From the IMG/VR virus record IMGVR_UViG_3300029286_000123, positions 1 through 38,191 of that record: a stretch of DNA of 38,191 nt, one strand, 5' to 3'. The notes below the pieces were generated by a model, which ran no database searches, was not told the DNA's origin, and saw only the letters and a list, made by a program, of their open reading frames with translations. Shown in pieces: positions 5,886-34,404 of the stretch (positions within the stretch are counted from its first letter, which is position 1; each line of letters opens with the position of its first letter). Source of the DNA: a virus. A program made the translations under genes and the position numbers.

Positions 5886-6311
5886 ATGCCATTTACTGGA
5901 AACTACACCTGCAATAGTTTTAAAGAAGGTCTGTTTGACGGGTCTTTTGATTTTGGATCAGGCACGTCTGATGTATACAAAATTGCTTTGTATACGAATG
6001 CAGCATCGCTAGACGAAACAACAACCGCATACACCGCCAATGGTGAAACAAGCGGCGGAAACTATGTGGCTGGTGGAAACACAATTACGCCATCTCTAGC
6101 CTCTTTGAATGGCACGTCGTATGTAGATTTTAGTAACGCAACGTGGACCGGATCAATTACAGCCCGTGGAGCGTTAATCTACAAGTTCAACGGAACTACC
6201 AATCCAGCAGTTTGTGTTTTGGATTTTGGAAACGACAAAACCTCTACGGCTACGTTTACCGTAGAATTTCCTGCAGCAACAAGTACATCGGCAATTATAA
6301 GGATTACGTAA
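5886..6311 (+). CDS. Beta-rich virion protein, paralogue A
   Basis: The 141-residue product is Thr/Ser/Gly-rich. It shares a pattern with the protein encoded at 6519-6995: a short N-terminal helix with a GLFDGSFDFGSG-type turn, DVYKIALYTNAASLD, then TTTAYTANGETSGGNYVAGG, and an ending of the form STATFTVEFP-TS-AIIRIT. The aligned features are DTFKAALYLA, TTAYTVSGEVSGSGYTAGG and TFTLTMP-NALLRLSTT in the paralogue. The fold is probably a jelly-roll-like or immunoglobulin-like virion module. A role as decoration or tail protein cannot be decided. It starts one base after the preceding stop and overlaps the next start by one base. Confidence 0.55.
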   Translation: MPFTGNYTCNSFKEGLFDGSFDFGSGTSDVYKIALYTNAASLDETTTAYTANGETSGGNYVAGGNTITPSLASLNGTSYVDFSNATWTGSITARGALIYKFNGTTNPAVCVLDFGNDKTSTATFTVEFPAATSTSAIIRIT

Positions 6312-6505
6312 TGGCTTTTATTACTACCACAAAAGGTGATATGGACGAAGCTCTGCTTGAGAAAAAAGAAGGCTTCGTAGACAATGATAACGAGTACACA
6401 ACGTGGGTTGAGTATTGGCATGAAGATGAACTTGTCCATCGGTCTGTACACGTGACTTTGAAACAAATGCCTGTTTTTGCTGGTGCAGAAGCGGCATCTT
6501 TTTAA
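6311..6505 (+). CDS. 64-residue acidic protein between two paralogues
   Basis: The ATG at 6311 overlaps the stop of paralogue A (TAATG); an earlier in-frame ATG at 6143 lies inside that gene and is rejected. The product is acidic, with DMDEALLEKKEGFVDNDNEY and TTWVEYWHEDELVHRSVHV, and looks like a small alpha/beta domain. I do not recognise it. Lying between two related beta-rich genes, it may form a complex with them, but this is inferred from position only. Confidence 0.5.
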   Translation: MAFITTTKGDMDEALLEKKEGFVDNDNEYTTWVEYWHEDELVHRSVHVTLKQMPVFAGAEAASF

Positions 6506-6518
6506 TTAGGAGCATTAG

Positions 6519-6995
6519 ATGGCTAATACTCAATCGATGTGCACCTCCTTTATGGGGGAACTTCTTACTGGTACTCATAACTTTGGTACTGGTGTTATTC
6601 GAGCATCTACTACAGCGGACACGTTTAAGGCCGCTTTGTACCTTGCCTCGGCAACTATTAATGCCAGTACAACTGCGTACACTGTAAGTGGAGAAGTTAG
6701 TGGCTCGGGCTATACCGCTGGTGGCGTATCTATTTCTTCCTGGAATGCCCCGACGGCTACCAACGCTTCGGCTACTGCCGGCGTTGCTTTTACGACGCCC
6801 ACGGCATCTTTTACTTATAGCACGGTGACTTTGACCACTGCGTTTGATACTGTGTTGATCTACAACTCGACGCAAAGTGATAAGGCTGTCAGTGTTCATA
6901 CCTTTGGTTCGCAAACCGTGACCGCTGGTACGTTTACTCTGACTATGCCGACCAACAACACTACCAACGCTCTGCTGCGCCTTTCTACGACGTAA
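6519..6995 (+). CDS. Beta-rich virion protein, paralogue B
   Basis: TTAGGAG lies about six bases before the ATG. The 158-residue product parallels the protein at 5886-6311 across its length: a short helical lead, a FKAALYLA strand, TTAYTVSGEVSGSGYTAGG, and a TFTLTMP-LLRLSTT ending. It is about 17 residues longer, the extra length being a Thr/Ala-rich insertion around residues 70-95. Tandem duplication followed by divergence is the simplest explanation. Such pairs often build alternating surface or tail structures. The next gene follows after 23 bases. Confidence 0.55.
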   Translation: MANTQSMCTSFMGELLTGTHNFGTGVIRASTTADTFKAALYLASATINASTTAYTVSGEVSGSGYTAGGVSISSWNAPTATNASATAGVAFTTPTASFTYSTVTLTTAFDTVLIYNSTQSDKAVSVHTFGSQTVTAGTFTLTMPTNNTTNALLRLSTT

Positions 6996-7911: not shown

Positions 7912-9246
7912 ATGGCTACAACCAATTACACCACCCTTCTGGGCCTAGCCCTTCCCACTACAGGGGATCTATCGGGCACTTGGGGTACAGAAGTTAACAC
8001 CGCGATTACATCGTTGCTTGACACTGCCGTAGCTGGCACGACGACTCTCAGTGCGGATACAGACGTAACATTGTCTACCACCAATGGTGCGGCAAACCAG
8101 GCTCGCAGTGCAGTTATTCTGTGGACTGCTACTGGATCAACAACGCGGAACATCACCGCGCCAGCCCAAAGCAAGGCATACGTTGTTATTAATGCAACGG
8201 GCGGAAGCCAGTCAATTGTCATTCGAGGCGCCGGTCCCACTACGGGTGTGACAATCCCGGCCGGTACTAAAGCTCTTGTAGCTTGGAATGGTTCTGACTT
8301 TGTAACGGTCTCTTCTACGTTTTTTGCTTCCCCCTTGGCTGTAACGGGTAACTCTACCGCCGGCGCTGAAATTCGTTTGCCGGAAGACACCGACAATGGC
8401 AGCAACTACGTTGCGTTGAAAGCGGCAGACACACTCGCGGGAAATGTCACATTTACCCTTCCAAATGCAGATGGCACAAACGGACAGGTGCTTCAAACAA
8501 ACGGCAGTGGCGTTCTGAGTTTTGTATCGGGATCCTCACTTGCAACTCCATTGGCTGTTGTAGGGAATGCCACCGCTGGCGCAGAACTCCGCTTGCCTGA
8601 AGATACTGATAACGGGTCCAACTATGTGGCACTGAAGGCGCCAAATACATTAGCAAGCGATCTGACTTTCACCCTACCGTCGGCGGATGGGACTAATGGT
8701 CAGGTTCTGCAAACCAATGGCTCTGGTGCGCTGAGTTTTGTATCCGGTGCATCTTTGGCAACCCCCCTTGCTGTTATTGGAAATAGCAGTGCTGGTGCAG
8801 AACTGCGTTTGCCAGAAGATACCGACAACGGCAGTAACTATGTTGCGCTAAAAGCCCCTGATAGCCTTGCTGCTGACTACACATGTACGCTTCCAGACGA
8901 GACTTGCACTCTTGGGTTTAGGAATATCCCGCAGAACTCTCAATCTGCTGCATACACGCTTGTTCTAGCGGATTCCGGTAAGCATATCCTGCACCCATCT
9001 GCTGATACGACCGCACGCACGTTTACTATTCCTGCTAACAGTAGCGTGGCTTTCCCTATTGGGACTGCTATTACGTTTATCAATCAAAACGGCGCTGGTG
9101 TTGTAACTATTGCAATTACCACCGACACAATGCGATTGTCACCTGCTGGTACTACTGGTAGCCGAACTCTTGCGGCTAACGGTTCGGCAACTTGCATTAA
9201 AGTTACTAGCACTGAATGGATTATCTCAGGGAGTGGTTTGACATGA
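7912..9246 (+). CDS. Tail fibre protein with three 72-residue repeats
   Basis: The 444-residue protein starts with TTNYTTLLGLALPTTGDLSG-TWG, the N-terminal type seen in several podovirus tail-fibre genes. It carries three copies of a 72-residue module (starting at bases 8335, 8551 and 8767, each 216 bases on) with AGAE-RLPEDTDNGSNYVALK, TFTLP-ADGTNGQVLQTNG and SFVSG. The third copy breaks off near base 8900, where CTLPDETCTLGF replaces the usual end. The rest, residues 340-444, is beta-rich. It overlaps the lectin gene as ATGA, so the fibre and its probable tip are made together. Confidence 0.7.
   Translation: MATTNYTTLLGLALPTTGDLSGTWGTEVNTAITSLLDTAVAGTTTLSADTDVTLSTTNGAANQARSAVILWTATGSTTRNITAPAQSKAYVVINATGGSQSIVIRGAGPTTGVTIPAGTKALVAWNGSDFVTVSSTFFASPLAVTGNSTAGAEIRLPEDTDNGSNYVALKAADTLAGNVTFTLPNADGTNGQVLQTNGSGVLSFVSGSSLATPLAVVGNATAGAELRLPEDTDNGSNYVALKAPNTLASDLTFTLPSADGTNGQVLQTNGSGALSFVSGASLATPLAVIGNSSAGAELRLPEDTDNGSNYVALKAPDSLAADYTCTLPDETCTLGFRNIPQNSQSAAYTLVLADSGKHILHPSADTTARTFTIPANSSVAFPIGTAITFINQNGAGVVTIAITTDTMRLSPAGTTGSRTLAANGSATCIKVTSTEWIISGSGLT
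8335..8910 (+). repeat. Three tandem 216-bp repeats inside the fibre gene
   Basis: Copies begin at 8335, 8551 and 8767. Shared features are GCTGGCGC/GCAGAA-type starts and repeated ADGTNGQVLQTNGSG in the first two. Copy 1 and 2 are close over their full length; copy 3 keeps the first two thirds and then diverges. The bases differ at many third positions, so the repeats are not recent exact duplications. Confidence 0.8.
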
Positions 9247-9887
9247 GCGGCGTATCTCAAGCTGTATTTATGAACCAGAGGTCGTTTGGCCCGCCACCGC
9301 CGGGTGCGATTGGTTCTGCGTATGAGGGCGGGTATTACGCAGGTCAGATTTCAACCGCTGGCAATGGGGTTGCAGATTTTTATTTAGTTGTTGCCCCAAA
9401 ATCTTCTGGCGAAAATTCATCTAAACAATGGAAAACCACAAATACGTCCACAGCGGGAACATCTTCGGTTATTGACGGCCCAACCAATAGCGCTAACATG
9501 AACAATGCAAGCCATCCAGCGGCGCAGTTCTGTAAAGGCTTGACCATTGGCGGCTTTACTGACTGGTACATGCCCGCAAAAAACGAACTTGAAGTGTGTT
9601 ATTACAACCTAAAACCCACTACAGCGGGCAATGACACCGGCGCAGGCGTTAACGCCAACGCTGTGCCCAGAAGGGATAGTAGTTACACTTCGGGAACACC
9701 TGCGCAAACTTCGGCGGCGGCGTTTGTAACTGGTGGTGCAGAAGAGTTTGCGGCTGGCAGTTACTGGTCTAGTACTGAGCCTTCTGCGACGGGCGCATGG
9801 AGACAGTTCTTCGGTGGCGGCAACCAGAACTACGACAATAAGGACTATTCGACCCGGGTTCGAGCAGTTCGGAGATTGCCCGTTTAA
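9243..9887 (+). CDS. DGR variable protein, C-type-lectin-like fibre tip
   Basis: The ATG at 9243 overlaps the fibre stop (ATGA); the earlier in-frame ATG at 9216 lies in the fibre gene and is rejected. The 214-residue product has a linker (residues 1-55), then a domain with GGFTDWYMPAKNELEVCYYN and a C-terminal SYWSSTEPSATGAWRQF and RVRAVRRLPV. The DWY-P-K-EL and YWSSTE...VRAVR signatures belong to DUF1566/C-type-lectin-like domains, the commonest DGR target fold. The last 45 residues are written by the retroelement (VR 9746-9876). The product would sit at the tail or fibre tip and contact the host receptor; that location is inferred from its coupling to the fibre gene. Confidence 0.85.
   Translation: MSGVSQAVFMNQRSFGPPPPGAIGSAYEGGYYAGQISTAGNGVADFYLVVAPKSSGENSSKQWKTTNTSTAGTSSVIDGPTNSANMNNASHPAAQFCKGLTIGGFTDWYMPAKNELEVCYYNLKPTTAGNDTGAGVNANAVPRRDSSYTSGTPAQTSAAAFVTGGAEEFAAGSYWSSTEPSATGAWRQFFGGGNQNYDNKDYSTRVRAVRRLPV
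9746..9876 (+). repeat. DGR variable region (VR)
   Basis: This 131-bp 3' end of the lectin gene aligns without gaps to the TR at 10398-10528 (constant offset of 652). In the first 127 positions there are 20 mismatches and every one is an adenine in TR: 13 became G, 4 T and 3... by my alignment G is most frequent, followed by T and C. The only mismatch not at an adenine is 9873 (A) against 10525 (C), at the 3' border. The unchanged stretch at 9854-9872 marks the end where homing would begin (IMH-like). Confidence 0.92.
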
Positions 9888-9908
9888 TTCTTTAATTCTT
9901 TTCTTTGC

Positions 9909-10268
9909 ATGGCACAGTACAAACACTTACCAATATACAAGACAACCTACCAGTTGCTTGAAATGGTAACGCGCAAAACTAAAGATTTTCCCCGTGATTT
10001 TAAATACTCACTAGGGGACAAGATTAGAAATGAGTGCATTGAATTGGTTGTGTTTATTTATAAAGCCAACACACTGCGCCAGCAAAGAAAAGAGCACTTA
10101 CAGCAAATACTTGAAAGAGTGCAGGTCATTGAATTAATGCTTCGGCTTGCCAAAGACTTGCGTTTGCTTAATGTTACCGTTTTTTCCGAAATCGTCTTGT
10201 TGACTGACTCGCTTGCGCGTCAGGCACAAGGATGGATTACACATACACCAGACTTGAGGGCGGAATAA
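9909..10268 (+). CDS. avd: DGR accessory variability determinant (Avd)
   Basis: This 119-residue protein is all alpha helix by composition and contains YKTTYQLLEMVTRKTKDFPR followed by DFKYSLGDKIRNECIELVVF, the signature of the bacterial accessory variability determinant/S23 four-helix bundle family. Avd forms a pentamer that binds the DGR RNA and the reverse transcriptase and is needed for cDNA synthesis. It lies between VR and TR, as in the Bordetella phage BPP-1 layout. The first ATG has no recognisable Shine-Dalgarno sequence upstream, only a pyrimidine-rich tract with two TTTAATTC copies at 9883-9898, so the translation start is the least certain point. High positive charge (many Arg and Lys) fits RNA binding. 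Confidence 0.9.
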   Translation: MAQYKHLPIYKTTYQLLEMVTRKTKDFPRDFKYSLGDKIRNECIELVVFIYKANTLRQQRKEHLQQILERVQVIELMLRLAKDLRLLNVTVFSEIVLLTDSLARQAQGWITHTPDLRAE

Positions 10269-10538
10269 CGATGATTACGGTGATCGTTAGCGACCCATCT
10301 ATCTCGGGCCATGCCCGTTGGGAAACCAACGAAAGGGCGCAAGCCAATCTCAGTGTGGAAAAATCTGCATTGCGTTGTGTGAGTGCATGGCCTTTGCGTT
10401 TGCGGCTGACAATTACTGGTCTAGTACTGAGAATTCTGCAACGAACGCATGGAAACAGAACTTCAATAACGGCAACCAGAACAACAACAATAAGAACAAT
10501 TCAAACCGGGTTCGAGCAGTTCGGCGATGGAGCCAAGT
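10269..10538 (+). ncRNA. DGR template RNA region (leader, TR and RT leader)
   Basis: No protein gene is convincing between avd and the reverse transcriptase. The stretch should be transcribed as the DGR RNA. Its 5' part carries CGTTGG (10316-10321), GAAA (10322-10325) and CCAACG (10326-10331): a perfect 6-bp stem with a GNRA tetraloop. CGGGC at 10305-10309 and GCCCG at 10313-10317 form a competing stem around CAT. The TR itself runs 10398-10528. Its 3' end merges with the Shine-Dalgarno sequence (GGAG at 10529-10532) of the RT gene. Extent of the RNA is inferred from the layout of known DGRs. Confidence 0.7.
10398..10528 (+). repeat. DGR template repeat (TR)
   Basis: The TR pairs with VR (9746-9876) and is very rich in adenine, with 46 adenines in the 127-bp core by direct count; 20 of them are changed in VR. 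In the frame homologous to VR it reads ADNYWSSTENSATNAWKQN, then NGNQNNNNKNNSNRVRAVRR. The many AAY codons are typical, since changing the two As lets an Asn codon become many other residues without making a stop. TR differs from VR at 10525 (C against A), the sort of difference that sets TR apart from VR near the homing initiation site. Confidence 0.92.
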
Positions 10539-11657
10539 ATGCAGTGTGATCTGTCAATTTCGGAAGTTTTTCAGGCGTATTACGACTGCCGAAAGGCAAA
10601 GCGCAATACATGGAATGCAATTGAGTTTGAAAGTCAACTTGAGCGCAACCTGATGGACTTGTACTACGAGCTGGTGGCTGGCAATTACCAACCGGGGCGA
10701 TCCATCATGTTTGTCGTCACCAGACCTAAGGCGCGTGAAGTTTGGGCTGCAAATTTTAAGGACAGGGTTGTACACCACATTTTGTACAACCGCTACTCGG
10801 GCCACTTTTACCGGCGATTTATTCATGACAGCTACGCCTGCATCCCTGAAAAGGGCACACTCCGCGCAGCCAATCGTGTGCAACATTTCATTCGGTCGGC
10901 CACTCAAAATCACACTCGTCCGGCGTGGTTCTTAAAGGCTGACGTAGCAAATTTTTTTGTGTCTATTGACAAGTCAATTTTGGACGCCATGCTGGCGCGG
11001 CACATCACCGACCCGTGGTGGATGGCCTTGACACGGACAATCTTGCACAAAGACCCAAAAGAAAATGTTTACATCAAGAGCGATGCGTCGTTACTTTCTA
11101 AAGTACCCGCTCACAAAAGTTTGCTCAACGCCACAGCTGGTTTTGGTCTGCCGATTGGCAATCTGTCCAGTCAGTTCTTTGCCAACGTCTATCTGGATGC
11201 GCTAGATCAGTACGCCAAGAACACGCTAAAGCTGCGGCATTACGCCCGTTATGTCGATGACATCGTGGTGATCGGCGGAAGCGGAACCGATTTGAACGAG
11301 GCTTATGAAAAAATGTCGGTTTTTGCCGAGACACATCTTGCCGTCAAGTTTCACCCTAACAAAAAAGAAATTAATCGGGTTGAGGTGGGAATAAACTTTG
11401 TAGGCTATATTATTAAACCTTGGTGTAAATACATTCGCCGATCCACGATTGCCAATATGTACAAGCGCACTGCACTGCATTCTGAATTTGAGCCTCTGCG
11501 TGCAACGGTCAACAGTTATTTTGGTATGTTACGGCACGCTAACGCTTTTAAAGAACGCAAGCGTGCAGCAACACACCTTGGTAAATCCGGCTGCTGGTTT
11601 GATGGCCAGCTTACAAAACTTGTCAGATTAGGAGCATCACAATGCACATCGTCGTAA
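10539..11657 (+). CDS. DGR reverse transcriptase
   Basis: Start at ATG 10539 is chosen since GGAG lies six bases upstream; the earlier in-frame ATG at 10527 sits inside the TR end. The 372-residue protein has the DGR-type fingers/palm: catalytic Asp135 in LKADVANFF, GLPIGNLSSQ at 203-212 (motif 4, with the NLSSQ form specific to the DGR/group II-like branch), and YVDD at 238-241 with both catalytic Asp residues. It lacks RNase H, maturase and endonuclease domains, as DGR enzymes do. It copies the TR RNA while misincorporating at adenines, together with Avd, and the cDNA replaces VR. Its last 16 bases overlap the next gene. Confidence 0.93.
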   Translation: MQCDLSISEVFQAYYDCRKAKRNTWNAIEFESQLERNLMDLYYELVAGNYQPGRSIMFVVTRPKAREVWAANFKDRVVHHILYNRYSGHFYRRFIHDSYACIPEKGTLRAANRVQHFIRSATQNHTRPAWFLKADVANFFVSIDKSILDAMLARHITDPWWMALTRTILHKDPKENVYIKSDASLLSKVPAHKSLLNATAGFGLPIGNLSSQFFANVYLDALDQYAKNTLKLRHYARYVDDIVVIGGSGTDLNEAYEKMSVFAETHLAVKFHPNKKEINRVEVGINFVGYIIKPWCKYIRRSTIANMYKRTALHSEFEPLRATVNSYFGMLRHANAFKERKRAATHLGKSGCWFDGQLTKLVRLGASQCTSS

Positions 11658-12076
11658 CCGAAGTTGACCACAACACCCGCATCCCTTGCACTGTCGAGCC
11701 ACAGCGCACAGGGCCATCCATGCCAGCCGTCAAAGGCTTGCGCATCATCTGGCAAGACAAGTCCACATGGCCTGTCCCAACAGATTCCACAGGCACATAC
11801 CTGCGTGCGCCCAAGTACTACGGCACCTGTGATGACGACGCCGATACAAACATTCCCGGCGTGTTGGAAGTCCTGACCGAGACCGAGTGGAACGAGCGCC
11901 GTGTTGCAGAGCACGAAGCTACACGCCCGTACCCATCGTGGATCGGCTACTTGGACACCATGAGCTGGGGCGCTCCAGTACCCCGTCCTATTGATGCCAT
12001 CATGAACGGTGGCAACGTGCGTTACCAGTGGGACGAGGCCACAGTCAACTGGGTGCCAATGGAACCACAGGCATGA
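11642..12076 (+). CDS. Unknown protein downstream of the DGR
   Basis: GGAG at 11631-11634 is seven bases upstream of the ATG, and the gene overlaps the RT gene by 16 bases. The 144-residue product is acidic and Trp-rich. It has PAVKGLRIIWQDKSTWPVP, a DDDADTN stretch, WNERRVAEHEATRPYP and an ending YQWDEATVNWVPMEPQA. The last pattern resembles C-terminal tails of small proteins coded after tail-fibre genes, which can be fibre assembly factors; I do not recognise a defined family. Position between the DGR and the sulfotransferase is the chief reason for interest. Confidence 0.45.
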   Translation: MHIVVTEVDHNTRIPCTVEPQRTGPSMPAVKGLRIIWQDKSTWPVPTDSTGTYLRAPKYYGTCDDDADTNIPGVLEVLTETEWNERRVAEHEATRPYPSWIGYLDTMSWGAPVPRPIDAIMNGGNVRYQWDEATVNWVPMEPQA

Positions 12077-12891
12077 AAGAGTTCTTCTTCATCTCGGGAC
12101 TGCCACGGTCAGGCTCAACCCTGCTGTCGGCCATCTTGCGCCAGAACCCTGAGTTCTACGCAGACATCTCCTCGCCCGTGCAAGGCTTGGTGGCATCGAC
12201 CATCAACGTCATCACGGGCAGTGAGAGCAACCACCTGATTGATGAAGATCGCCGCAAGAGCATCCTGCGGGCCATGTTCAACGCCTACTACGACGCTGTT
12301 GAGCCGCCCATCGTGTTCGACACCAGCCGGGGCTGGACATCCAAGACATCTCTCCTGAAGACCCTGTACCCACAGACCAAGATCATCTGCTGCGTGCGGG
12401 ACTTGCCGTGGATACTGGACAGCTTTGAGCGGATCGCGGCCAAGAACACTTTGTGGAACGCCAGCCTGACGGATGACGAATCTAGCCAAACAGTCACCAC
12501 CCGGTGCGATGCGCTGATGGATGTGAAAAAGCAAGGTCAGGTGGTCAAGCCCTACTACTTCTTGGAAGAGGGTCTGCTCTTAAACCCCGACATGATCATG
12601 CTGGTGGAGTACGAGATGCTGTGCAAGCAGCCCGAGAGCGTGATGCGGGAGTTGTATGGCTTCATTGGCAAACCGTATTTCGACCACGATTACATGAACG
12701 TCGAGTACGATAACGAGGTGTACGACAAGGCGCTGAACATGAAGAGCTTGCACACAGTCCGCAAGCAAGTGTCGTGGCAAGAGCGCCCCACCATCCTGCC
12801 CAAGTCGGTGTGGGAGAAGTACTCAGGCAAGGAGTTCTGGCGCAAACCCGCCGAAGTGGAAGGGTTTAAGGTTCGCTGGGAACAAGCATGA
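12073..12891 (+). CDS. PAPS-dependent sulfotransferase
   Basis: The start at 12073 overlaps the previous stop as ATGA. The 272-residue protein begins MKEFFFISGLPRSGSTLLSA: Gly9-Leu-Pro-Arg-Ser-Gly-Ser-Thr16 is the 5'-phosphosulfate-binding loop. VRDLPWILDSFER, starting at Val108, is the 3'-phosphate-binding region. Later Tyr/Trp-rich segments end with FWRKPAEVEGFKVRWEQA. These features place it in the sulfotransferase family that moves sulfate from PAPS to an acceptor hydroxyl or amine. The acceptor is unknown; candidates are the host surface glycan, or the phage fibre. One line of the gene (12121-12180) is 37 of 60 G+C against 23 of 60 in the next gene (12961-13020), so the two may have different origins. 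Confidence 0.88.
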   Translation: MKEFFFISGLPRSGSTLLSAILRQNPEFYADISSPVQGLVASTINVITGSESNHLIDEDRRKSILRAMFNAYYDAVEPPIVFDTSRGWTSKTSLLKTLYPQTKIICCVRDLPWILDSFERIAAKNTLWNASLTDDESSQTVTTRCDALMDVKKQGQVVKPYYFLEEGLLLNPDMIMLVEYEMLCKQPESVMRELYGFIGKPYFDHDYMNVEYDNEVYDKALNMKSLHTVRKQVSWQERPTILPKSVWEKYSGKEFWRKPAEVEGFKVRWEQA

Positions 12892-13274
12892 GAGTGCTTG
12901 TCATGGGCCTACCGGGTTCCGGTAAGACCACACTCGCTGATTCTTTACCGTTGCCGTTTGTAAGATTGAATGCAGACCAAATAAGGCAAGAAGCAAACGA
13001 TTGGGATTTCACCATTGAAGGCAGGCTGAGGCAGGCCAGACGCATGAGAGAGTTAGCTGGTGACAAAGATGTGATTGCTGACTTTGTGTGCCCTCTGCCA
13101 GAGATGCGTGAGATTTTTGATGCTGACTATGTTGTATGGATGGACACTGTTGTTGAATCAAAGCATCTTGATACGAACAGACTTTTTGTACCGCCGGAGC
13201 ATTTTGATTGCAAGGTAACAAGTTGGGATGCAAAATGGATTCAACAAATTACAACTGAGATTCTTGTTAGATAA
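12888..13274 (+). CDS. APS-kinase-like P-loop kinase
   Basis: The ATG at 12888 overlaps the sulfotransferase stop (ATGA). The 128-residue product has Walker A GLPGSGKTT (residues 8-16), then VRLNADQIRQE (a D-x-x-R motif as in adenylylsulfate kinases), RLRQARRMRELA, and ADFVCPLPEMRE, which resembles the ISPFRADR segment of APS kinase. It is short (APS kinases are about 170-200 residues), missing part of the C-terminal lid. It may phosphorylate APS to supply PAPS for the upstream sulfotransferase, which its coupling suggests. A polynucleotide-kinase-like or other P-loop kinase is the main alternative, since specificity cannot be read. Confidence 0.65.
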   Translation: MRVLVMGLPGSGKTTLADSLPLPFVRLNADQIRQEANDWDFTIEGRLRQARRMRELAGDKDVIADFVCPLPEMREIFDADYVVWMDTVVESKHLDTNRLFVPPEHFDCKVTSWDAKWIQQITTEILVR

Positions 13275-23700: not shown

Positions 23701-26700
23701 ATGGATCGGAAAGAAAATCCGTTTGACCAGTTTGACCAAGAGCCAGCCAATCAATTTGACCAGTTTGAAGTAACACAAAGCGCCAACCCGTTTGATCAGT
23801 TTGATCAAATGGATAAAGTTGCCGCACCAGTTGCGCGTGGTCCAATCAAGGGGCCAGCGCAGCGTACAGTGGTGCCCCCAGCGGCAGCCCCTGTGGCGCC
23901 AGTAACAGCAGAAGATTACTTGGAGCCAGCGACTTCTGCGCCGCCACCTTTAAGTGAGGCTGTGCGATCGCAATTAGATCGCAAGTATGACGCCCTGTCT
24001 CCACAGGACCGGGATGCAATCATTCGTGGTCGCACCAAAGATGGCCGCCAGACCTTGGAAGGAATGTACTTTGCCTACAGGGACAAGCAGTTTGCTGCGC
24101 GTGATGCTGATACGGCAGCATTTGCCAAGCAGCTCGGTCCAATGGCATATCGCCTTTCTGACCTGACAGACCCCCGGAAAGAGTCGCGTGCTCGTATGGC
24201 GCGTGAGCAGGGCGCATCGGACAAGACAGCAGAGAATATTGCAGCGCAAGCAGCTATCGAGGGTCTGCCAGCAGAAGAGGTGGTGCCGCAGGCCAAAGAA
24301 TCAAAGTTTGATTTTGACTTGGCTGCTCGCTACAAAGATCTTAATCCCGTGGTGCGCGGGGCTGTAAAGGGTTACTACGGCTACAAGCAAAGTGTGCTTG
24401 GCCTTAACCAAGCGCTTGGTGACTTGGTTGGTGCAACAGACTTTGCGGATACGCAAAGGGCTGGCGCAGAAACTGCCGGCGGTCGTGTTGAATCTATTGG
24501 TGAGCGTCCTGATTACCTGTCGCGTAACTTTGAAGGCGCGGTGAGCAGTGTTGTTCAAAATATTCCCGGCATTCTTGGCGGAATTGCAACGGGCGGTGCG
24601 CTAGTCCCATTGTCTGTGCTGGGCGTACAGTCTTTTGGCCAGAACTACACAGAGGGCGTGAGTCGTGGGTTGACCCGCGACTTGGCGGCGCAACGCGCAG
24701 GCGTGTTTGCAGCAGCAGAAATCTTGGGCGAGCGCTTTGGCTTGGCCGGTCTAACAAACGGCATCCGCAAAGCCTTTGGCAAGAAAAGCTTTGAGGAGGC
24801 TTCCGATGCGGTCTCGCGGTACATCGTTAGCCAGATTCCCGGTGAGCAACTGACTACTGCTACGCAGTTCCTTGCAGACAAGTACCCGAGTTTTGCCTTG
24901 AATCCACAGGCAGGTATCAAAGAGTATCTGCAGCAAGCTGGCGATACGTTGACTCAAACCATCATGCAGGGCGGTCTGATGATGGGTGGCGTTAAGGGCG
25001 CTCAGTTCTTGGCTACCGGGCGGTTTGGCGCAGAGCCCGGAGAACAGCCACCGATTGCCGGCCGTCCTCCAGAAGAGCCGCCGATGGCACCAACCGAAGA
25101 GCCCCCTATTGCTCCGTCTGGCGCTCCGGGTGGTGAACGCATAGAACCAACGGTTACCGCAGAGCCCACCATCACTCCGGAGCGTGTAGAGCCTGCGTTT
25201 GGTGCAGAACCCACTATAGAGCCTGCTGTAGAACCGGAAGAGCCCGGCGTTCCCGGCATGGTCACCACGGAGATGCTGGCACCCGAAGCGGTGGAGCAGC
25301 CAGAAGGCCAGGTTGCCCCAGCAGAACCGCCGGTTCCGTCGCCTATCAAGCCAGCTGTTGCGCCTCCACAAGAACCATCCAATGAAACCACTGTAGACGG
25401 AATGTTGCCGGTCAATGTGCCGCTCAAGGATCTGACGCTCTCCAAGGATGTGCCGCAGTTCAAGATGGGCGCAGATGCCAAGGGCGTTGTAGAGCCGCTA
25501 GGCGGAAAGTTTGAGCGCACTGGCGTCGCCCCCATTCAAGTCTGGCGCCGGCTTGATGGCAGCCTAGAGGTTATCTCCGGGCGTCACCGTTTGGATTTGG
25601 CTCGCCGTAGTGGCGAGAAAACCATCCCTGCACAGATTCACGACGAGTCGCAGGGCTTTACTCCCACGATGGCGGCCATTCTAGATGCGGAGCTGAACAT
25701 CCGCGATGGCCAAGGAAAGGTGAAGGACTATGTCAATTACTTCAAAGCGGCCGGCATCACCCCGGAAGATGCAGAGTCAAGAGGACTTCTGGCAAGGTCA
25801 ACGGGCAAGCGGGCTTACACAATCGCAACTACGGGCAGCGATGAACTCGTTGCCGCAGTTCGTAACGACCAAATCGGTGATGAAGCGGCGTACTACGTCG
25901 CGCTAAACGCGCCGAATGACCCGCGTCTGCAAAGCGTGGGTCTGCAAGCCATTCAGGATGGCAAGTCGGCCAATCTAGCAGTCAACACCATGCTGGCCAT
26001 GAAGGCGCTTGGCATGGAGCAAGACACCACGACCGACATGTTTGGCTTTGACGACAGCGCCATGAAAGAAGCGGCTGCTATGGCACAGGTCGCTAACAAG
26101 AAGCAGCGTGAGATCCAGACCCGGCTTGCTGCTATTACTGGCGCAGCCAAGAACCCGGCTGTTGCCAAAGCAGAAGGCATCGACATCCGCGACCCAGAGG
26201 CGGTCAATCGCCGTATTGGTGAGCTGCGTCAGATGAAGAATGCTTGGGACAACTGGGCTACCAGTCCTGAATTGATTGGCGAAATTCGCCAAGCACGTGG
26301 CGTTGAAGCACCTGGTCTGACTCTGCGTGGCGAGACGGAAGAAGAAATCCGTGCCCGCGAGGAAGCGGCGGCAGCAGAGGAGCAGCGTCTCCGTAGCGAG
26401 GCGGAGGCAGCCAGACGTGCAGAGCAGGCGGAGATAGAGCGCAAGCGTGCAGAAGAAACTACCGACCTATTCCAGCTTGGCCAGACTGCAGAGCAGCAGA
26501 TGTCTGGCATGGGTGATTTGTTTGCGGAACCGGCAGCCCCAGCAAAAGCGCCGAGGGAAGCGCCAGAATTTCCGTTTGAAGAAGGCGCTCGTGTTCGTTT
26601 TTTGCCAACCGACACATCGCCTTTGGGTGGCGGTGTTGCAGAAGGCCAAATCATTGGTTTGGACAAAACCAGTGGAAAAAACTACCGAGTTCGTTTGCGC

Positions 26701-29700
26701 TTAGATAAAGATGCCCCGCAGGGTAGCGGCAAGATGGAGCGCGTTGTTTACAGCAATGCCGGTACTTTTGAGGCGGCAGAAGCGCCCGCAGCAGCCCCAG
26801 CAGCAAAACCTGTTATTGAAAGAACTACCCAGCCCGATGGCGGTGTTCGCACAGTTGTAACCAGAGATGGAAAAGTCATTAAAGATGTGACTCGCTGGAA
26901 ATACGAAGCGATTGTTGCTGACGAACCGCAAGGGTTTGTTGTCGAACAAGATAACATCACTGGTGAAAAAGAAGCATTTTGGGCCGTAGATGGCAGGGTT
27001 ATTGGCTCCGGCATTGGTGCCACAAAGCTTTTTGAACAAGGCATGTCTAACGAAGACGCCATCCGTCGATTGATGCAGGATGTAGAAAGTCTGACGCTTA
27101 AAGGCAAGGCAGAAGCGCCCGCAGCAGCACCAGAAGCAGCCGACATGGAGCAACTCAACCGCCTGATGGGCGAGTTGCAAAAGGCGCGCAGTGAACAAGA
27201 GTTCACCGACGCTGCTGTTGCGCTGGGTGAGTCGGTGCCCAAGCAACCGTTCTTGGGAGTGCAGCTGAAGGAGCTGTCGAGCGGTGTGCGGTTCAATATC
27301 GCTCGCTCTTCGGATGGCAACCGTATTGTCTTTAATGCTGGCTACGATGACCCCGATGGTTTTGAGATAGCCCGCAAGCCCAATCAAGCGTGGAAGCTTA
27401 CAAAGACACCGCGCTTTGCCAAGCAGATCATTGAGCGCAACCAAGCAGCGCCGGTGGTTGAGAAGCCAGAAGCTAAGCCCGCTCTGCAGAAGCCGGCTGC
27501 CGAGAAAGCAGAACCACGCGCAGATTTTGACAAGCGCGCGAAGAACGCGATTGATAGCTTTGTAGACAGCATTGTTGAGCAGTTTGACATGACGCCGGAA
27601 ACGGCCCTGGCTGCATTCAACTGGCTGCGCAGCGAGAAGCTGGCTGAAGTGGATCCGGTTCTGGGCAAGGTCAATCTTAAGGATGGTCGCTTCTGGGATG
27701 GCGAAATCCTACGTCGAGCGGCGCTGGAGACGGAGGCCAGGGGCCGTGAGCCAGGGGCAACGGACGAGGACGTTAAGGCAGTCGGCGAAGTTTTTGAAGG
27801 CGCACGCGCCGGTCAAGAAGAAGAGCTTCATCGTCTGTTCGACAAGCCTAAAGAGGTGGTGCGCCTCACCCAGAAGGGTGACTTCATCACTCCTGCAGAA
27901 GCAAAGAAGCGTATTGCTGAGTGGAAAAAGAATGCAGAAGACCAAGGCAAGACCAACGCTAATTCAGACAAGATCGTTCTGTCATTGTTTGATTTGACTG
28001 GCGCATGGAGTGAGCCGTGGCTTGAGGCTGGGTATCAGGTCTATCGCTTTGACATCCAAGATCAATGGACAATGACCGATGAGCGCACAGGCGAAGAACT
28101 AAACCTTGGCGACATCAACAACTTCAGCGTCGAATACTTTGAAGATCTGTTTGGTAACTTTGAGGGCAACGATGTCCACGCCATCCTAGCTGCCTGCCCT
28201 TGTACCGACTTTGCATCTAGTGGTGCGCGTCACTTCAAGGCTAAAGATGCAAGTGGTCAAACGATGGACTCGGTGCAGTTGGTGCAGCAAACGCTGGCCA
28301 CCATTGAGTACTTCCGTCCTGCTATTTGGGCTATTGAGAACCCTGTTGGTCGTATTGAAAAGCTGACTGGCTTGCCACCGTGGAGCCTGTCGTTTGACCC
28401 GTACATGTTTGGTGACCCGTACACCAAGAAGACATTGTTGTGGGGTCGGTTCAACGCCAATCTGCCGACCGCTCCTGTTGACCCTGTAGAGGGCAGCAAG
28501 ATGCACCGCATGTATGGCGGCAAGTCTCTGGCCACCAAGAACGCCCGGAGCGTCACGCCGGAAGGTTTTGCCTATGCGTTCTTCCAAGCCAACAACGCTA
28601 TTGACCATCCTGTCATGGCCCTGGCCAACATCTACGACCGACTAAACCCCAAGCTGTTTGAGCGTGCAATGAAGCTTGGCGTGTCTGAGCAAGACATCCG
28701 TTACGCTATAGATGACGCGTACTACAGCGAGTTGGACGATGCGGCAGCAGAAGCTGAGCTCGTTCGACTGGCCAATGAAGCGCAAGCGGCTAAGGCTCCT
28801 AAGCCGAAGGCGGAGAAGCCTGCTGAAAAACCAATTGCCGCCAAACCAGCGGAAAAACTTCCGTACACCAAAGAGCAGCGCGAAGATGCCGAGATCCATG
28901 CCAAAGAAGTGGGCGGGGAGATTGTATGGCAGCGTGGTGAATACGCACTGATTCGCGGCTACTCCGATCGTACCGGAGACCCGATGTATGCGCCCACCAT
29001 TGGTAGCTCACGAGCCCGTGTTGATATCTCTGCTTTTATTGGCAAGCAGATCCCGGATGATGTGAAGAAGGAAATGCTGGAGACCAAGGAGCGCCTTGAA
29101 AAAGAAGCTGCCGAGGCTCATGCAGCCAATCCGTTCATCAAGTTCAAGGATGGCATTGCTCTGTCGGAAGACATCCCGGCAGATTTGGCGGGGGTTATCC
29201 GTGAGTGGAAAAACCTTCTCAATATAAATGTTCCGGTCTATGTATCTACCATTGAAGATGCCAAGCGGAATATTGATAACTTTACTGGGCCGCACCGTCG
29301 CATTGGATCTGGAACGCTTGATGAGAATGAAGCGGGGTCGATGCGCCGGATGACAGATGATAGCTATTACATTCTGTTTAAGAAATCTACCAGCTACACA
29401 AAAATGTTGGAGACGTTGGCCCACGAAATTGGCCACCTTCACATGACTGTTCACTATAAACGAGCAAGTCAAGAAGACAAAAAAGCCCTAGAAGCCGCGC
29501 ACATTAAATGGATGGAGTCGCAGAAAGACAAAAGCGCAAAAGAATGGGTAGATGCTATGCGCGCTCGATCTACGGGCCGCATGGTTAAAGAAGTCCCTGG
29601 CATGAAAGCCAGTGAAATGGACTTTTATTGGCGCAAGTTTGGCGAGTGGTACGCCGATCAGACTGCACGGTGGGCGATGTCCGCAGAAGCTCCGGTATCG

Positions 29701-32700
29701 GTGGTGGAGAAGTTCTTCAAACGGCTGGGCAATCAGCTGCGCCGTTTCTACCAAAGCCTGCGTGGCCAGAAGTATCTGCCGGATGAGACGTTCCGTGAGT
29801 TTATTGAACGTGCCATCAGCCCAACCTACATGGGACCGACTGACACGACTCTGCCACCCTCAGATGAGGCAGAACGGCAACTGCGCGATGCAGAACGCGA
29901 GAGTGCAACGTGGTCGCCTAAGCGTATCAAGATGCTGGTGCGTGAGTTTGTATATCGCCAAGAAGGTAGAGAGAACGACACCAAGGCATACGCTGCCTTT
30001 ATCAATCCGACTGAGTTTGTGCGTGCAACCACCGAGCCTGGTGAGTTCCGCAAAGAATTGCTCCGCGCAGAAGAAGGCTTGGACATGGATCGTCTGCGTG
30101 AGGAAGACCAGACGCCGTTCTTGAAGGTGGATTACGTGCCCGGCGACCGGGTGATGTGGTCTATCGTCAATCATGAGGGCCGTCACCGCATGGCTGCTTT
30201 GGCAGCTGCTGGCGTGGAGCGCGTGCCCGTATTGATTCGCATGACTGGCGAAGCGCAAGCATGGCCCGCTATTGAGTCGCAGTGGTTGAGCGGCCAAAGA
30301 TTTGGCACTGGGATTAGGGAGAAAGGTGATGCAGTCGAGATCACCGACTTGACGCCAATCTCGTGGGCCAACCGCGATGATCTGCAACAGAAGTTTGGTG
30401 GCGAGGGTATAGCGTTCAGTATCGAACAGCCAGAAGCAAAGCCCACGAAGCGGATGAGCGATGAAGACATTCGCGACGAACAGATTCGTGAGTACTCTGC
30501 ACTGCGTCAACGCTTAGCTGCTGTTCCCCGGAGAATCGCGACTGGCAAAAGCGCGCTCCCTGATGGCCCAGCTAAAGGCATGACCGAGCTTGAGCGCGTC
30601 TACCTGAAGTCTCTTGTGGATAGGGCGCAGTATCTTAAGGCTGCCATCAAGATCAGTGCTCCGCGTCTTGATAGCCCTGAGCAGTTCCTGGCTCGCGCTC
30701 TCAAGGAGTACGACGCCGGCAACATCAGCAAGGAAGTGTTAGATGTCATTCAGGCTGCGTATAAACAACAGCCCAGACTTCTCAATGGACTAAAGCTCAG
30801 CATCAAGCAAGCCCCTGAAGGGGAGGGGCGCTTTGCCGGTGCGTTCCTAAACATGTCGCGCATCGTTCGCCTCTACAAGGGGTCGAGCGGTGTGGACGAT
30901 CCAAAGACCATCCGCCATGAGCTGACGCACTCTTTGGAGCAGATGATGACGCCCGAGCAGCGCGGCGTGATTATCGACAAGTGGCAAGACGATCTGGCCA
31001 GGGCAATCCGCAAGCACAAGGATGCCGCCCATCAGAAGTACTTTGAGGCGCTGCTGAAGTTCTTGGATAAGCCCACGATGGAAAACTACAAAGCTGCCAT
31101 CGCGGCGCTGCCATCGTATGACATGTACCAGTTCATCACTCCCTCTGAGTACTGGGCAGTCAACGCAGAGAACCTTATGGCCAGCCAGCTTGGCGGTCCT
31201 TGGCAACGCTTCAAGGCAGCCATGAAGCGGATGTTTGAGGCGCTGAAGGATGTCTTTGGATTCGATAACAAGTACGTTGTCCAGCGTGTCTTCAAAGACA
31301 TCATGACTGGCAGCAAGGAACGCGTGACCACCGAGATGCTGGCTGACCGGGCGGGCATTGCTGTCTATCCTGCGCAGAACATCGAAGAAGACAAAACGCT
31401 GATTGAAAAGTACAAGCGTCCCAAGACGCCGATGCTGGACAAGAAGCCGCTGGCTACCTTTTTGCTTGACCAGTTTAAGAACGGCAAGGATCTGTTTAAA
31501 GACTTTGTAGAGAACCCCAAAGAGGCTGCTGCTGACGCTGGCAACTCATTAATTGATGGGGCGCTCAGGGCGCGCATGGCAACTGTCTGGTACGGGGCCG
31601 GTTTGGAGTCACGCGACTTTGCCAAGTATGGTGGTCAGCTGCGCACTAGCGAAGACTTGGCCACAGCATCTGTTGCTTTGGATAACGCCATCCGCAGCGG
31701 CAATATTGGCGTGGAAGTCATCTTCCGTGGTGGCCTAAAGTTTGATAAGGACAAGCTGCAACTCGTAGCCGTAGAGACCAAGAAAGGTATGCGCGGTGTC
31801 TACGATGCAGAGCGCCGCCTGAAGGACAAGCTGGGCAATCAGCTTGGCACTGACATTATCCAAGGCTATCTGGAAGCCAAACGTTCTATAAGCATCATGA
31901 ACGAGTTTTACGATCGCCAGGCTGCATACGAGGGCGCCAAGGAAAACCTCAAGATGCTGCGCGAGCAGGGCGCTTCGGAGAAAAAGATTAAGGAAGCAGT
32001 GGCGCTCATGGAGAGCGCAGAGCGCAGCCTTGAATCGGTTAAGAAAGCCGTCTCATCGGTGACCATGACCGAAGAGGAAATGTACGATTTTGCCGCTAGG
32101 GACAAGGTTCATCCAGAGCTCCGCGAAATTATGGACAACTGGACGGCTGTAAATCAGAACCTGTTGCGTATCTGGCGAGATGTTGGCCTGTTGTCTCCGG
32201 AGCGTTACGAGGCGCTTGCCTCTATCCCGGACTACGTACCGTGGTATCGCATCATGCAGGACGAAGAGGATCCGCATACGCCTCTTATGTCTACCACCCG
32301 TGGGCTCACCAACATTGGCCGGGAGAAGCTGTTCAAGCGGACCAAGCCGACCGATGTGCTGGACTTCAAGGGCAAGGAAGGCAAGAAGGTTCTGGACGAG
32401 AGCGGCAACTTGATTGGCATGTCTTTCAAAGTGCCGCCGTCCACTGTGCTACGCGTTGAGGTAGATGGCGAAAAGATCAAAGCCCAGGACTTGTCTGTGA
32501 CCGATGACGGCCGGGTAATGGTCAAGGCACCGATTGATGACGCCTCTCTGGTGGTCTTCAAGGTGACCCGCCCGATTCAAAACATTGTTGATAACATGAC
32601 TCAGAACGTCATGCGCATGACGATGAACGCCATCCGTCAGTATGCGGCTGGACGGATTGTTTCTGAGTACGCAACCCGTGACCCCCAGGGAAGAGTTATG

Positions 32701-34404
32701 ACGTTCCCGAAGGAAGATCTTGCCAAAGGTCGATTCTCCTTTGTGATCAACGGTCAACGCAAGGTCGTAGAAATTTCAGACCCGCTACCGCTGGGCGCTA
32801 TTTATGGCATGGATAGCTTGAACTTGAAGATGTTTGCACTGCCTGCTGCATTCGCCAACTTCTTCCGTCGCACCATTACTCTGTCGTTTGTGTTCCAGCT
32901 GAAGCAGGTATTCAAGGATGCGCCCACGGCGGCTGCCGTTACCGGCGTTCGCAATCCAGCAGCTCTTATCCTGGGGACTTACAAAGGACTCATTACCGCG
33001 TTGCTGCAACCTGTCGGCAAGAAGGTGGGCATAGACATCGAGCCAGCGGTGGATATCTTGAAGGCTGCCGGCATCGGCGGCTTCCAGAATCCGTCACGTA
33101 CTCCAGAGGCAGAAGTAAAGCGTCGGCTGGGCATCATGAACCGCAACGTCTTCGACTTTGTGATCAAGGCGCTAGACCACATTGGTGACTCGGCTGACAT
33201 GGCGCAACGGATTGCAGTTTACAAGCGCGTCATGGCAGAGACTGGCAATGAAACGCAGGCGCTCTATCAGGCTGCCAATGTCATTAACTTCCTACACCAC
33301 GGCTCCTCCGGCACAGCTCAGGCTTTGGTTAAGACCGTTCCCTTTATGGGCGCATATGCCAACGCAATGGATGTATTGGTTAACTCATTGATTGGCGGCG
33401 GCCTTAAGGGCATGAGTCGCAGGAAGGCCATTGCCCGTTTGAGTGTGACCACGGGGATGCTGATTGGCATCACGCTGCTTTACACCATGTTGGTCAGTGG
33501 TGATGACGACTACGAAGAGCTGGACGATCAGACTAAGCTGCGCAACTTCATCATCCCTGGCACCGACATCATGCTGCCGATGAACACGTCGTATGCGTTC
33601 TTCTGGAAGGCAATCACGGAGATGCTTTACAACGAGGCAATCAAGAAGGCTACGCCGAATGAGATTGACCAAACACGCCTGAAGAAAGCGTTGAGTACTG
33701 CCGCCAGAGACATGCTGCTTGGTCCGGAGCCGGTGCCGCAGATAATCAAAGGTCCGGCTGAGATTGCCATCGGCTACAACTTCTTCACCGGACGGGACAT
33801 CATTCCTGAAGGTCTGAAGAACGTTGAAACGTTCCAGCAGTACACCGCTGCCACTTCAGAACTTGGCAAGTGGTTTAGCAGCTACACCGAAGTCCCCGGT
33901 ACTGATGGCAAGCGCATCCTAAGCCCCATCGAGGCAGATCATCTAATCCGTTCCACGTTTGGTACGGCCGGGGCTCTTGGTCAATGGGTCACCAATCGCA
34001 TTGCCGTAGAGGCTGGCACAAGACCGGAGCTCACGGAAAAGGAAGCGCCTATCACTGGCGCGTTCCTGCGACCGGAAGTAGATCGTGGCAGAGAAGATCT
34101 GTTCTACGACCTACGCAATCGCGTGAACCAAAAGTACAACACGCTGCGTGAGCTGGAGCGTGATGATGAGAAGAAAGCCGAGGCTTACGACGAAAAGTAT
34201 GAAGACCTTCTTGATATGCACAAAGACGTAAACAAGATAGCCGCAGACCTATCCGACATCAACGCAGAAATTCGCGAGCTCAGCACATCTAAAGATATCA
34301 AGATGACCCCCGCCGAACGTCGCGCCGAAATCCGCGCTCTTCAGCAGGAAAAGAAAGAAGTCCTTGATGACATATACGAGCTTCGCAAGGAGGCGGGGCT
34401 CTAG
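23701..34404 (+). CDS. Giant polyvalent virion protein (3567 residues)
   Basis: One intact 3567-residue frame. Order: N-terminal NPFDQFDQ repeats (6-37); a hydrophobic/Gly-rich region (200-445); a Pro/Glu-rich linker (445-565); a ParB/DdrB-like domain (570-690) with SGRHRLDLARR (Gly627-Arg-His-Arg630); an Ala/Glu-rich linker; a C5-methyltransferase-like domain (1421-1620) with CPCTDFASSG (Cys1501 would be the catalytic Cys) and IENP at 1545-1548; a metallopeptidase-like HEIGH at 1908-1912; NHEGRHRMAAL near 2157-2167, a second ParB-type element; HELTH at 2406-2410; and a C-terminal LPD38-like region (about 2810-3400) with a membrane segment near 3250. Large polyvalent proteins like this are packed in virions and injected, and may protect phage DNA from restriction or act on host targets. 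Each domain's activity is unverified. Confidence 0.75.
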   Translation: MDRKENPFDQFDQEPANQFDQFEVTQSANPFDQFDQMDKVAAPVARGPIKGPAQRTVVPPAAAPVAPVTAEDYLEPATSAPPPLSEAVRSQLDRKYDALSPQDRDAIIRGRTKDGRQTLEGMYFAYRDKQFAARDADTAAFAKQLGPMAYRLSDLTDPRKESRARMAREQGASDKTAENIAAQAAIEGLPAEEVVPQAKESKFDFDLAARYKDLNPVVRGAVKGYYGYKQSVLGLNQALGDLVGATDFADTQRAGAETAGGRVESIGERPDYLSRNFEGAVSSVVQNIPGILGGIATGGALVPLSVLGVQSFGQNYTEGVSRGLTRDLAAQRAGVFAAAEILGERFGLAGLTNGIRKAFGKKSFEEASDAVSRYIVSQIPGEQLTTATQFLADKYPSFALNPQAGIKEYLQQAGDTLTQTIMQGGLMMGGVKGAQFLATGRFGAEPGEQPPIAGRPPEEPPMAPTEEPPIAPSGAPGGERIEPTVTAEPTITPERVEPAFGAEPTIEPAVEPEEPGVPGMVTTEMLAPEAVEQPEGQVAPAEPPVPSPIKPAVAPPQEPSNETTVDGMLPVNVPLKDLTLSKDVPQFKMGADAKGVVEPLGGKFERTGVAPIQVWRRLDGSLEVISGRHRLDLARRSGEKTIPAQIHDESQGFTPTMAAILDAELNIRDGQGKVKDYVNYFKAAGITPEDAESRGLLARSTGKRAYTIATTGSDELVAAVRNDQIGDEAAYYVALNAPNDPRLQSVGLQAIQDGKSANLAVNTMLAMKALGMEQDTTTDMFGFDDSAMKEAAAMAQVANKKQREIQTRLAAITGAAKNPAVAKAEGIDIRDPEAVNRRIGELRQMKNAWDNWATSPELIGEIRQARGVEAPGLTLRGETEEEIRAREEAAAAEEQRLRSEAEAARRAEQAEIERKRAEETTDLFQLGQTAEQQMSGMGDLFAEPAAPAKAPREAPEFPFEEGARVRFLPTDTSPLGGGVAEGQIIGLDKTSGKNYRVRLRLDKDAPQGSGKMERVVYSNAGTFEAAEAPAAAPAAKPVIERTTQPDGGVRTVVTRDGKVIKDVTRWKYEAIVADEPQGFVVEQDNITGEKEAFWAVDGRVIGSGIGATKLFEQGMSNEDAIRRLMQDVESLTLKGKAEAPAAAPEAADMEQLNRLMGELQKARSEQEFTDAAVALGESVPKQPFLGVQLKELSSGVRFNIARSSDGNRIVFNAGYDDPDGFEIARKPNQAWKLTKTPRFAKQIIERNQAAPVVEKPEAKPALQKPAAEKAEPRADFDKRAKNAIDSFVDSIVEQFDMTPETALAAFNWLRSEKLAEVDPVLGKVNLKDGRFWDGEILRRAALETEARGREPGATDEDVKAVGEVFEGARAGQEEELHRLFDKPKEVVRLTQKGDFITPAEAKKRIAEWKKNAEDQGKTNANSDKIVLSLFDLTGAWSEPWLEAGYQVYRFDIQDQWTMTDERTGEELNLGDINNFSVEYFEDLFGNFEGNDVHAILAACPCTDFASSGARHFKAKDASGQTMDSVQLVQQTLATIEYFRPAIWAIENPVGRIEKLTGLPPWSLSFDPYMFGDPYTKKTLLWGRFNANLPTAPVDPVEGSKMHRMYGGKSLATKNARSVTPEGFAYAFFQANNAIDHPVMALANIYDRLNPKLFERAMKLGVSEQDIRYAIDDAYYSELDDAAAEAELVRLANEAQAAKAPKPKAEKPAEKPIAAKPAEKLPYTKEQREDAEIHAKEVGGEIVWQRGEYALIRGYSDRTGDPMYAPTIGSSRARVDISAFIGKQIPDDVKKEMLETKERLEKEAAEAHAANPFIKFKDGIALSEDIPADLAGVIREWKNLLNINVPVYVSTIEDAKRNIDNFTGPHRRIGSGTLDENEAGSMRRMTDDSYYILFKKSTSYTKMLETLAHEIGHLHMTVHYKRASQEDKKALEAAHIKWMESQKDKSAKEWVDAMRARSTGRMVKEVPGMKASEMDFYWRKFGEWYADQTARWAMSAEAPVSVVEKFFKRLGNQLRRFYQSLRGQKYLPDETFREFIERAISPTYMGPTDTTLPPSDEAERQLRDAERESATWSPKRIKMLVREFVYRQEGRENDTKAYAAFINPTEFVRATTEPGEFRKELLRAEEGLDMDRLREEDQTPFLKVDYVPGDRVMWSIVNHEGRHRMAALAAAGVERVPVLIRMTGEAQAWPAIESQWLSGQRFGTGIREKGDAVEITDLTPISWANRDDLQQKFGGEGIAFSIEQPEAKPTKRMSDEDIRDEQIREYSALRQRLAAVPRRIATGKSALPDGPAKGMTELERVYLKSLVDRAQYLKAAIKISAPRLDSPEQFLARALKEYDAGNISKEVLDVIQAAYKQQPRLLNGLKLSIKQAPEGEGRFAGAFLNMSRIVRLYKGSSGVDDPKTIRHELTHSLEQMMTPEQRGVIIDKWQDDLARAIRKHKDAAHQKYFEALLKFLDKPTMENYKAAIAALPSYDMYQFITPSEYWAVNAENLMASQLGGPWQRFKAAMKRMFEALKDVFGFDNKYVVQRVFKDIMTGSKERVTTEMLADRAGIAVYPAQNIEEDKTLIEKYKRPKTPMLDKKPLATFLLDQFKNGKDLFKDFVENPKEAAADAGNSLIDGALRARMATVWYGAGLESRDFAKYGGQLRTSEDLATASVALDNAIRSGNIGVEVIFRGGLKFDKDKLQLVAVETKKGMRGVYDAERRLKDKLGNQLGTDIIQGYLEAKRSISIMNEFYDRQAAYEGAKENLKMLREQGASEKKIKEAVALMESAERSLESVKKAVSSVTMTEEEMYDFAARDKVHPELREIMDNWTAVNQNLLRIWRDVGLLSPERYEALASIPDYVPWYRIMQDEEDPHTPLMSTTRGLTNIGREKLFKRTKPTDVLDFKGKEGKKVLDESGNLIGMSFKVPPSTVLRVEVDGEKIKAQDLSVTDDGRVMVKAPIDDASLVVFKVTRPIQNIVDNMTQNVMRMTMNAIRQYAAGRIVSEYATRDPQGRVMTFPKEDLAKGRFSFVINGQRKVVEISDPLPLGAIYGMDSLNLKMFALPAAFANFFRRTITLSFVFQLKQVFKDAPTAAAVTGVRNPAALILGTYKGLITALLQPVGKKVGIDIEPAVDILKAAGIGGFQNPSRTPEAEVKRRLGIMNRNVFDFVIKALDHIGDSADMAQRIAVYKRVMAETGNETQALYQAANVINFLHHGSSGTAQALVKTVPFMGAYANAMDVLVNSLIGGGLKGMSRRKAIARLSVTTGMLIGITLLYTMLVSGDDDYEELDDQTKLRNFIIPGTDIMLPMNTSYAFFWKAITEMLYNEAIKKATPNEIDQTRLKKALSTAARDMLLGPEPVPQIIKGPAEIAIGYNFFTGRDIIPEGLKNVETFQQYTAATSELGKWFSSYTEVPGTDGKRILSPIEADHLIRSTFGTAGALGQWVTNRIAVEAGTRPELTEKEAPITGAFLRPEVDRGREDLFYDLRNRVNQKYNTLRELERDDEKKAEAYDEKYEDLLDMHKDVNKIAADLSDINAEIRELSTSKDIKMTPAERRAEIRALQQEKKEVLDDIYELRKEAGL

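Follow-up and report, generated by a model that had tools for sequence, protein, structure and literature searches.

A complete diversity-generating retroelement in a phage genome, with a conserved structured RNA between avd and the template repeat

Diversity-generating retroelements (DGRs) rely on a reverse transcriptase (RT) that, together with the accessory variability determinant Avd, copies the RNA of a template repeat (TR) with errors at adenines, after which the cDNA replaces a variable repeat (VR). The view of how this synthesis is initiated rests on phage BPP-1, in which the recruiting and priming RNA lies 3' of TR. There, the spacer between TR and the RT gene brt is reported to recruit the bRT-Avd complex and to supply the priming adenine, and reverse transcription is terminated by a motif at the avd 3' end (PMC12875486). 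Here we describe a DGR in a viral genome of 38,191 nucleotides (IMG/VR record IMGVR_UViG_3300029286_000123, positions 1 to 38,191; this whole stretch is referred to as the window). The DGR itself adds one more phage to a well-known class, and the gain lies in its RNA. The locus as a whole is likely best explained as a complete DGR whose TR is flanked on the 5' side by a structured RNA that would take the role of the spacer in BPP-1.

The RNA fills the gap between avd and TR (10264-10393, on the plus strand, as are all parts of the element) and had been overlooked by the earlier reader of this DNA. We followed its covariation in 19 sequences, over 36 pairs arranged in five helices. The first helix, P0 (10266-10289), has a 5' arm that starts at the avd stop codon, and compensatory changes are seen in 9/9 of its pairs. 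A closing stem (10306-10314 with 10385-10393; 8/9 pairs compensatory) encloses three hairpins, and its 3' arm ends 4 nt ahead of the TR core. Hairpins P1 (10316-10331, CGTTGG-GAAA-CCAACG) and P2 (10336-10345, GGC-GCAA-GCC) are paired in 99.1% and 100% of alignment cells, respectively, while hairpin P3 (10351-10372) displays compensatory changes in eight of its nine pairs.

Over the complete alignment, 95.1% of cells are paired, compared with 28-45% after sliding of the 3' partners, and 30 of the 36 pairs have changed on both sides. Cells with changes on both sides amount to 173 versus 47.5 in shuffles, a value matched by none of 500 shuffles; the aligned relatives are not independent, and these counts are not to be read as probabilities. 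RNAalifold, when run unaided, arrives at essentially the same fold with 37 pairs 5' of TR. Structure prediction on the window sequence alone recovers the same main helices (z -1.98). We regard the existence of a conserved RNA fold between avd and TR as virtually certain.

A known RNA family offers a point of reference. The Rfam family RT-15 (RF03018), found with DGRs of Pseudomonas, other Proteobacteria and phages, likewise lies directly 5' of TR and has the same helix order, with P3 of the window falling at the position of its 3' hairpin in the alignment to RT-15 loci. The window RNA is shorter, however (130 nt versus about 192 for RT-15), and the Rfam search of the window returned nothing relevant up to an E-value of 10, with RT-15 giving no match. 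RT-15 occupies the equivalent site in 9 of 15 other loci, which are the more distant relatives. From the group of the window we built a separate model, R1, whose E-values are rough owing to a short calibration; no member of this group reaches the RT-15 cut-off where tested. Among 48 related viral records, 34 carry RT-15 above cut-off and the remaining 14 are matched by R1, so that every record checked has either RT-15 or the variant of the window.

The two models also meet. R1 recovers L040 and L041 at 96 bits, two of these 14 records and both absent from the set used to build it, and it matches RT-15 loci at the right spot and nowhere else within them (L086, 2e-8; L044, 1.4e-7; L069, 1.4e-4). 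One locus, L075, is matched by both R1 and RT-15, in the latter case with 51.6 bits and under the cut-off. Given the shared position, the R1 matches to RT-15 loci and the double match of L075, the window RNA is most readily understood as a distant variant of RT-15, reduced in length and beyond the reach of the RT-15 model. A literature search of limited reach returned no paper on RT-15 and DGRs, and the novelty of the association is stated with that reserve. As an observation on its own, R1 also matches L106 on the minus strand (6335-6463, E 0.016) downstream of RT, in a locus in which no TR was found; this may be a chance match or a displaced RNA.

The spacing of the element differs from that of BPP-1 (mtd-avd-TR-brt) in the same respect. 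In BPP-1, the last base of avd directly precedes TR (0 nt), and the spacer of 144 nt that lies between TR and brt contains the Rfam family Phage_DGR (RF03022; 2810-2942 of L165). In the window, 127-129 nt separate avd from TR, and only 14 nt lie between TR and the RT start. The earlier note had assigned to this locus the layout of BPP-1, which holds for the order of the genes, whereas the order of the RNA is reversed. The same spacing prevails in 117 loci, where the median distance from avd to TR is 168 nt (at least 121 nt in all of them) and that between TR and the first RT residue in the alignment is 16 nt. Phage_DGR has no match in the window and is above cut-off in none of the 45 group records searched, only in BPP-1. 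We also considered a BPP-1-like spacer hidden inside the RT coding region and rejected it, as no consensus fold emerged there from a gappy alignment, only a raised conservation of the first 15 codons.

The repeats themselves display the hallmark of adenine mutagenesis. The TR core (10398-10524) and the VR core (9746-9872), at an offset of 652, differ by 20 mismatches over 127 bp, and all 20 fall on TR adenines (13 A>G, 4 A>T and 3 A>C), with the other TR bases unchanged. With 46 adenines among the 127 bases of TR, the probability of this outcome by chance is 5.6e-11. Read in the frame of VR, TR holds 14 AAY codons, 11 of which are changed in VR, and the comparison by codon gives 13 non-synonymous and two synonymous codons. 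The alignment thus reproduces what the earlier note had reported, both the restriction of mismatches to adenines and the exact number of amino-acid and silent changes.

The VR core ends 4 codons ahead of the stop codon of the target gene. The first non-adenine difference beyond the core (C10525 in TR, A9873 in VR) is the expected discrepancy between IMH* and the initiation of mutagenic homing (IMH) sequence. The probable IMH is located at the 3' end of VR (9854-9876), and its boundary is kept in relatives. Inspection of 9873-9908 by eye revealed no GC-rich hairpin right after VR of the kind that BPP-1 has as a stem-loop 3' of the IMH. A search for a second VR covered the window and three overlapping records and found none.

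Both proteins required for mutagenic copying are encoded next to the repeats. The product of avd (9909-10268, 119 aa) matches bAvd (PF22296, E 1.4e-12) and phrog_3206, 'Avd protein of DGR' (E 2.7e-29), and it matches NF033474 with E 1.7e-13, under the cut-off of that model. The RT gene (10539-11657) encodes a protein with the motifs YVDD and IGNLSSQ that matches RVT_1 (PF00078) and phrog_1423 (E 9.6e-100), and the RTs nearest to it in sequence belong to DGRs with a TR/VR pair. Its start is probably the ATG at 10539 rather than that at 10527, since an ATG is missing from the latter position in L006 and L008, both of which have ATGCAGTGTGA at 10539. The assignment of Avd and RT to DGR families, proposed earlier from the letters alone, is borne out by these profile matches, as is the presence of a whole DGR on one strand of a phage genome: target with VR, avd, TR and RT all lie on the plus strand. 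That the locus is a complete DGR leaves, in our judgement, hardly any room for doubt.

Comparison with relatives offers a view of the element over time. We compared TR and VR with those of L006, L008 and L009, whose RTs are 72-81% identical to that of the window. Five or six non-adenine sites distinguish each of their TRs from that of the window, and the VR of each phage agrees with its own TR there, in 6/6 (L006), 5/5 (L008) and 6/6 (L009) cases. At shared adenine sites, the VRs of the window and of L006, L008 and L009 agree in only 14/42, 23/43 and 18/41 positions, compared with 70/71, 73/74 and 73/73 at shared non-adenine sites. Since VR tracks its own TR at non-adenine sites and diverges at adenine sites, these alignments indicate that VR has been overwritten repeatedly from TR with adenine mutagenesis since the divergence of these phages, and that retrohoming is recurrent. 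A TR/VR pair with adenine mismatches is present in 119 of 132 loci scanned.

In the mechanism that we propose, the avd-TR-RT transcript would supply an RNA with the compact multi-helix fold (10264-10393) 5' of TR. RT and Avd would copy TR with errors at adenines. The resulting cDNA would replace VR, which forms the 3' end of the lectin gene, and alter as many as about 20 codons in a C-type-lectin domain that is probably borne on a tail fibre. The 5' RNA would take over the job of the 3' spacer of BPP-1, namely recruitment of RT-Avd and perhaps priming and/or ending of the cDNA; a role as RT-Avd platform is what we infer, as somewhat the better bet. Several points weigh against this proposal. 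Copying by RT begins at the 3' end of TR, so a platform on the 5' side must reach that end by folding or through protein, and pairing of the 5' RNA with the 3' end of TR or with the RT start is no better than in permuted sequences. The first 15 RT codons are more conserved (0.65 versus about 0.44), and some 3' signal may therefore lie there. The lack of any conserved fold 3' of TR in the RNAalifold output, from the TR end into RT, counts in favor of the proposal, although the alignment behind it is gappy.

The main rival builds on the same early codons: in an ordinary DGR, the 5' RNA would do no more than halt cDNA synthesis at the TR 5' end, with priming from a short signal in the 3' flank and the early RT codons. 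Besides the raised codon identity in the first 15 RT codons, this explanation can draw on the terminating motif that BPP-1 has at the avd 3' end (PMC12875486) and on the closing stem, which stops 4 nt short of the TR core. For a stop signal, however, 130-190 nt and five covarying helices would seem excessive, and the lack of a detected fold 3' of TR speaks against it as well, so that we consider it rather unlikely. Alternatively, the RNA might be a cis-regulator of RT expression that acts as an attenuator or translational switch and has no part in cDNA synthesis. It does sit between avd and RT on what is apparently one transcript, with P0 overlapping the stop codon of avd. Yet TR intervenes between the RNA and the RT start, and the RNA abuts TR in the relatives examined, with the avd-TR distance never below 121 nt in the 117 loci; regulation of this kind appears improbable.

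A different doubt concerns the present state of the element rather than its RNA. Four IMG/VR records with different dataset numbers (the window, L003, L004 and L005) are identical over 11,128 bases, VR included, which also tells against the proposed mechanism as an ongoing process. Such identity would be unexpected for an active DGR unless the records share a source. With a single identical VR in four assemblies, diversification at present cannot be claimed, and the DGR could have been active formerly and be silent now in this phage. We nevertheless give a silent element very little weight, as all genes are open and well conserved, the VR core is free of non-adenine changes, and identity of VR is expected if the samples share a source. 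A complete DGR with a 5' structured RNA in the role of the BPP-1 spacer remains the explanation that we favor.

The target of this DGR is a protein of 214 aa (9243-9887) with an Lcl_C domain. This family (PF07603, formerly DUF1566) matches residues 63-210 with E 1.6e-11 and 44.9 bits, over the gathering score of 34.9, in line with the earlier description of a lectin of the DUF1566 type rather than of Mtd; the PHROG match is phrog_4245. A sequence search of the PDB gave a weak match only, and a search by fold was therefore needed. The AlphaFold2 model, based on an alignment with 46 relatives, has a mean predicted local distance difference test (pLDDT) score of 95.3. Its nearest solved structure is the C-terminal domain of Legionella Lcl (8q4e, Z 13.2 over 126 residues, 26% identity), relative to which the phage protein has extra segments. 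A Bacteroides fimbrial protein (4eps, Z 11.5) and a Bdellovibrio domain (Z 9.5) follow, and then numerous C-type lectins with Z of about 8 or less. The confident model points to a C-type-lectin fold with VR at the 3' end of its gene. DUF1566 is reported to be the most frequent Pfam domain among the targets of DGRs (PMC6642488), and VR regions with an annotation consistently have a C-type-lectin fold (PMC8144416).

Directly upstream lies a fibre-like gene of 444 aa (7912-9246), to which the target is translationally coupled: the lectin ATG (9243-9245) overlaps the fibre TGA (9244-9246), the ATGA junction that had been described before. The three 72-residue repeats described with it hold in part, as the period is indeed 72 residues (117 identities at offset 72), yet only two copies are full and the third is alike over about its first 46 residues. 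The fibre-like protein has no match in Pfam or PHROG. Parts of it share 51% identity with a protein from the fibre region of phage DSL-LC04, in which the following gene is a 'putative lectin'; DSL-LC04 is not among the RT matches listed (30 of 126). A location of the variable lectin domain at the fibre tip is plausible, and the lectin would presumably bind the host.

Several features outside the element deserve mention. Just after the DGR (12028-13274), a sulfotransferase-family protein (PF13469) is followed by a small kinase/AAA protein, an unusual phage cargo. Two possible paralogous pairs are present, one matching the SU10 adaptor family (PF24175; 3348-4277 and 5168-5884) and the other phrog_644 (5886-6311 and 6519-6995). 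A giant open reading frame of 3567 aa (23701-34404) is probably a multi-domain polyvalent protein, since its residues from about 524 to 863 are 54-58% identical to phage proteins, several of which are annotated as N6-adenine or DNA methylase. A PD-(D/E)XK exonuclease adjoining an Erf-type annealing protein (34905-36466) forms a recombination module. The related phage contig L026 carries two hammerhead ribozymes of type II upstream of its DGR (1507-1587 and 2320-2385), both of them over the cut-off of Rfam RF02276.

The wider meaning of the locus lies in its geometry. In the window and the 117 loci, the space 3' of TR is nearly absent, and the long 5' gap holds a covarying RNA wherever tested. 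If the 5' RNA does the same job as the BPP-1 spacer, a common branch of DGRs has a different initiation geometry, and the 130-nt form offers a handy test object for biochemistry or for tools of targeted diversity. It is a tentative idea, to which we grant slightly less than an even chance, that a large Avd-type branch of DGRs starts mutagenic cDNA from an RNA 5' of TR, with RT-15 as the initiation RNA of this branch and the window RNA as a compact, divergent form that present models miss. Priming would then need a fold that joins the 5' RNA to the 3' end of TR, unlike the geometry of BPP-1.

Among described phages, likeness to the window is divided. A kinship of the phage body with BPP-1 was rejected, as BPP-1 is not among the listed best matches of the two structural genes tested, which resemble those of DSL-LC04 and others. 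Phage DGRs with a DUF1566 target are already known (PMC8143477). The Pseudomonas phages LPPA56, Cruim01 and Haboob combine an Lcl_C-type target (30-37% identical to that of the window) with a DGR RT (46-52% identical) in a different phage backbone, and the Bacteroides phages Bacuni F1/F4 also carry both an Lcl_C-type target and a DGR RT. With BPP-1, whose RT is about 36% identical, the window shares gene order, strand, adenine-only VR changes, Avd and a target beside a tail-fibre gene. The two differ in their target, which is Mtd in BPP-1 and Lcl_C in the window, and in the placement of the structured RNA: BPP-1 carries its Phage_DGR RNA 3' of TR, whereas the window carries an RT-15-like RNA 5' of it.

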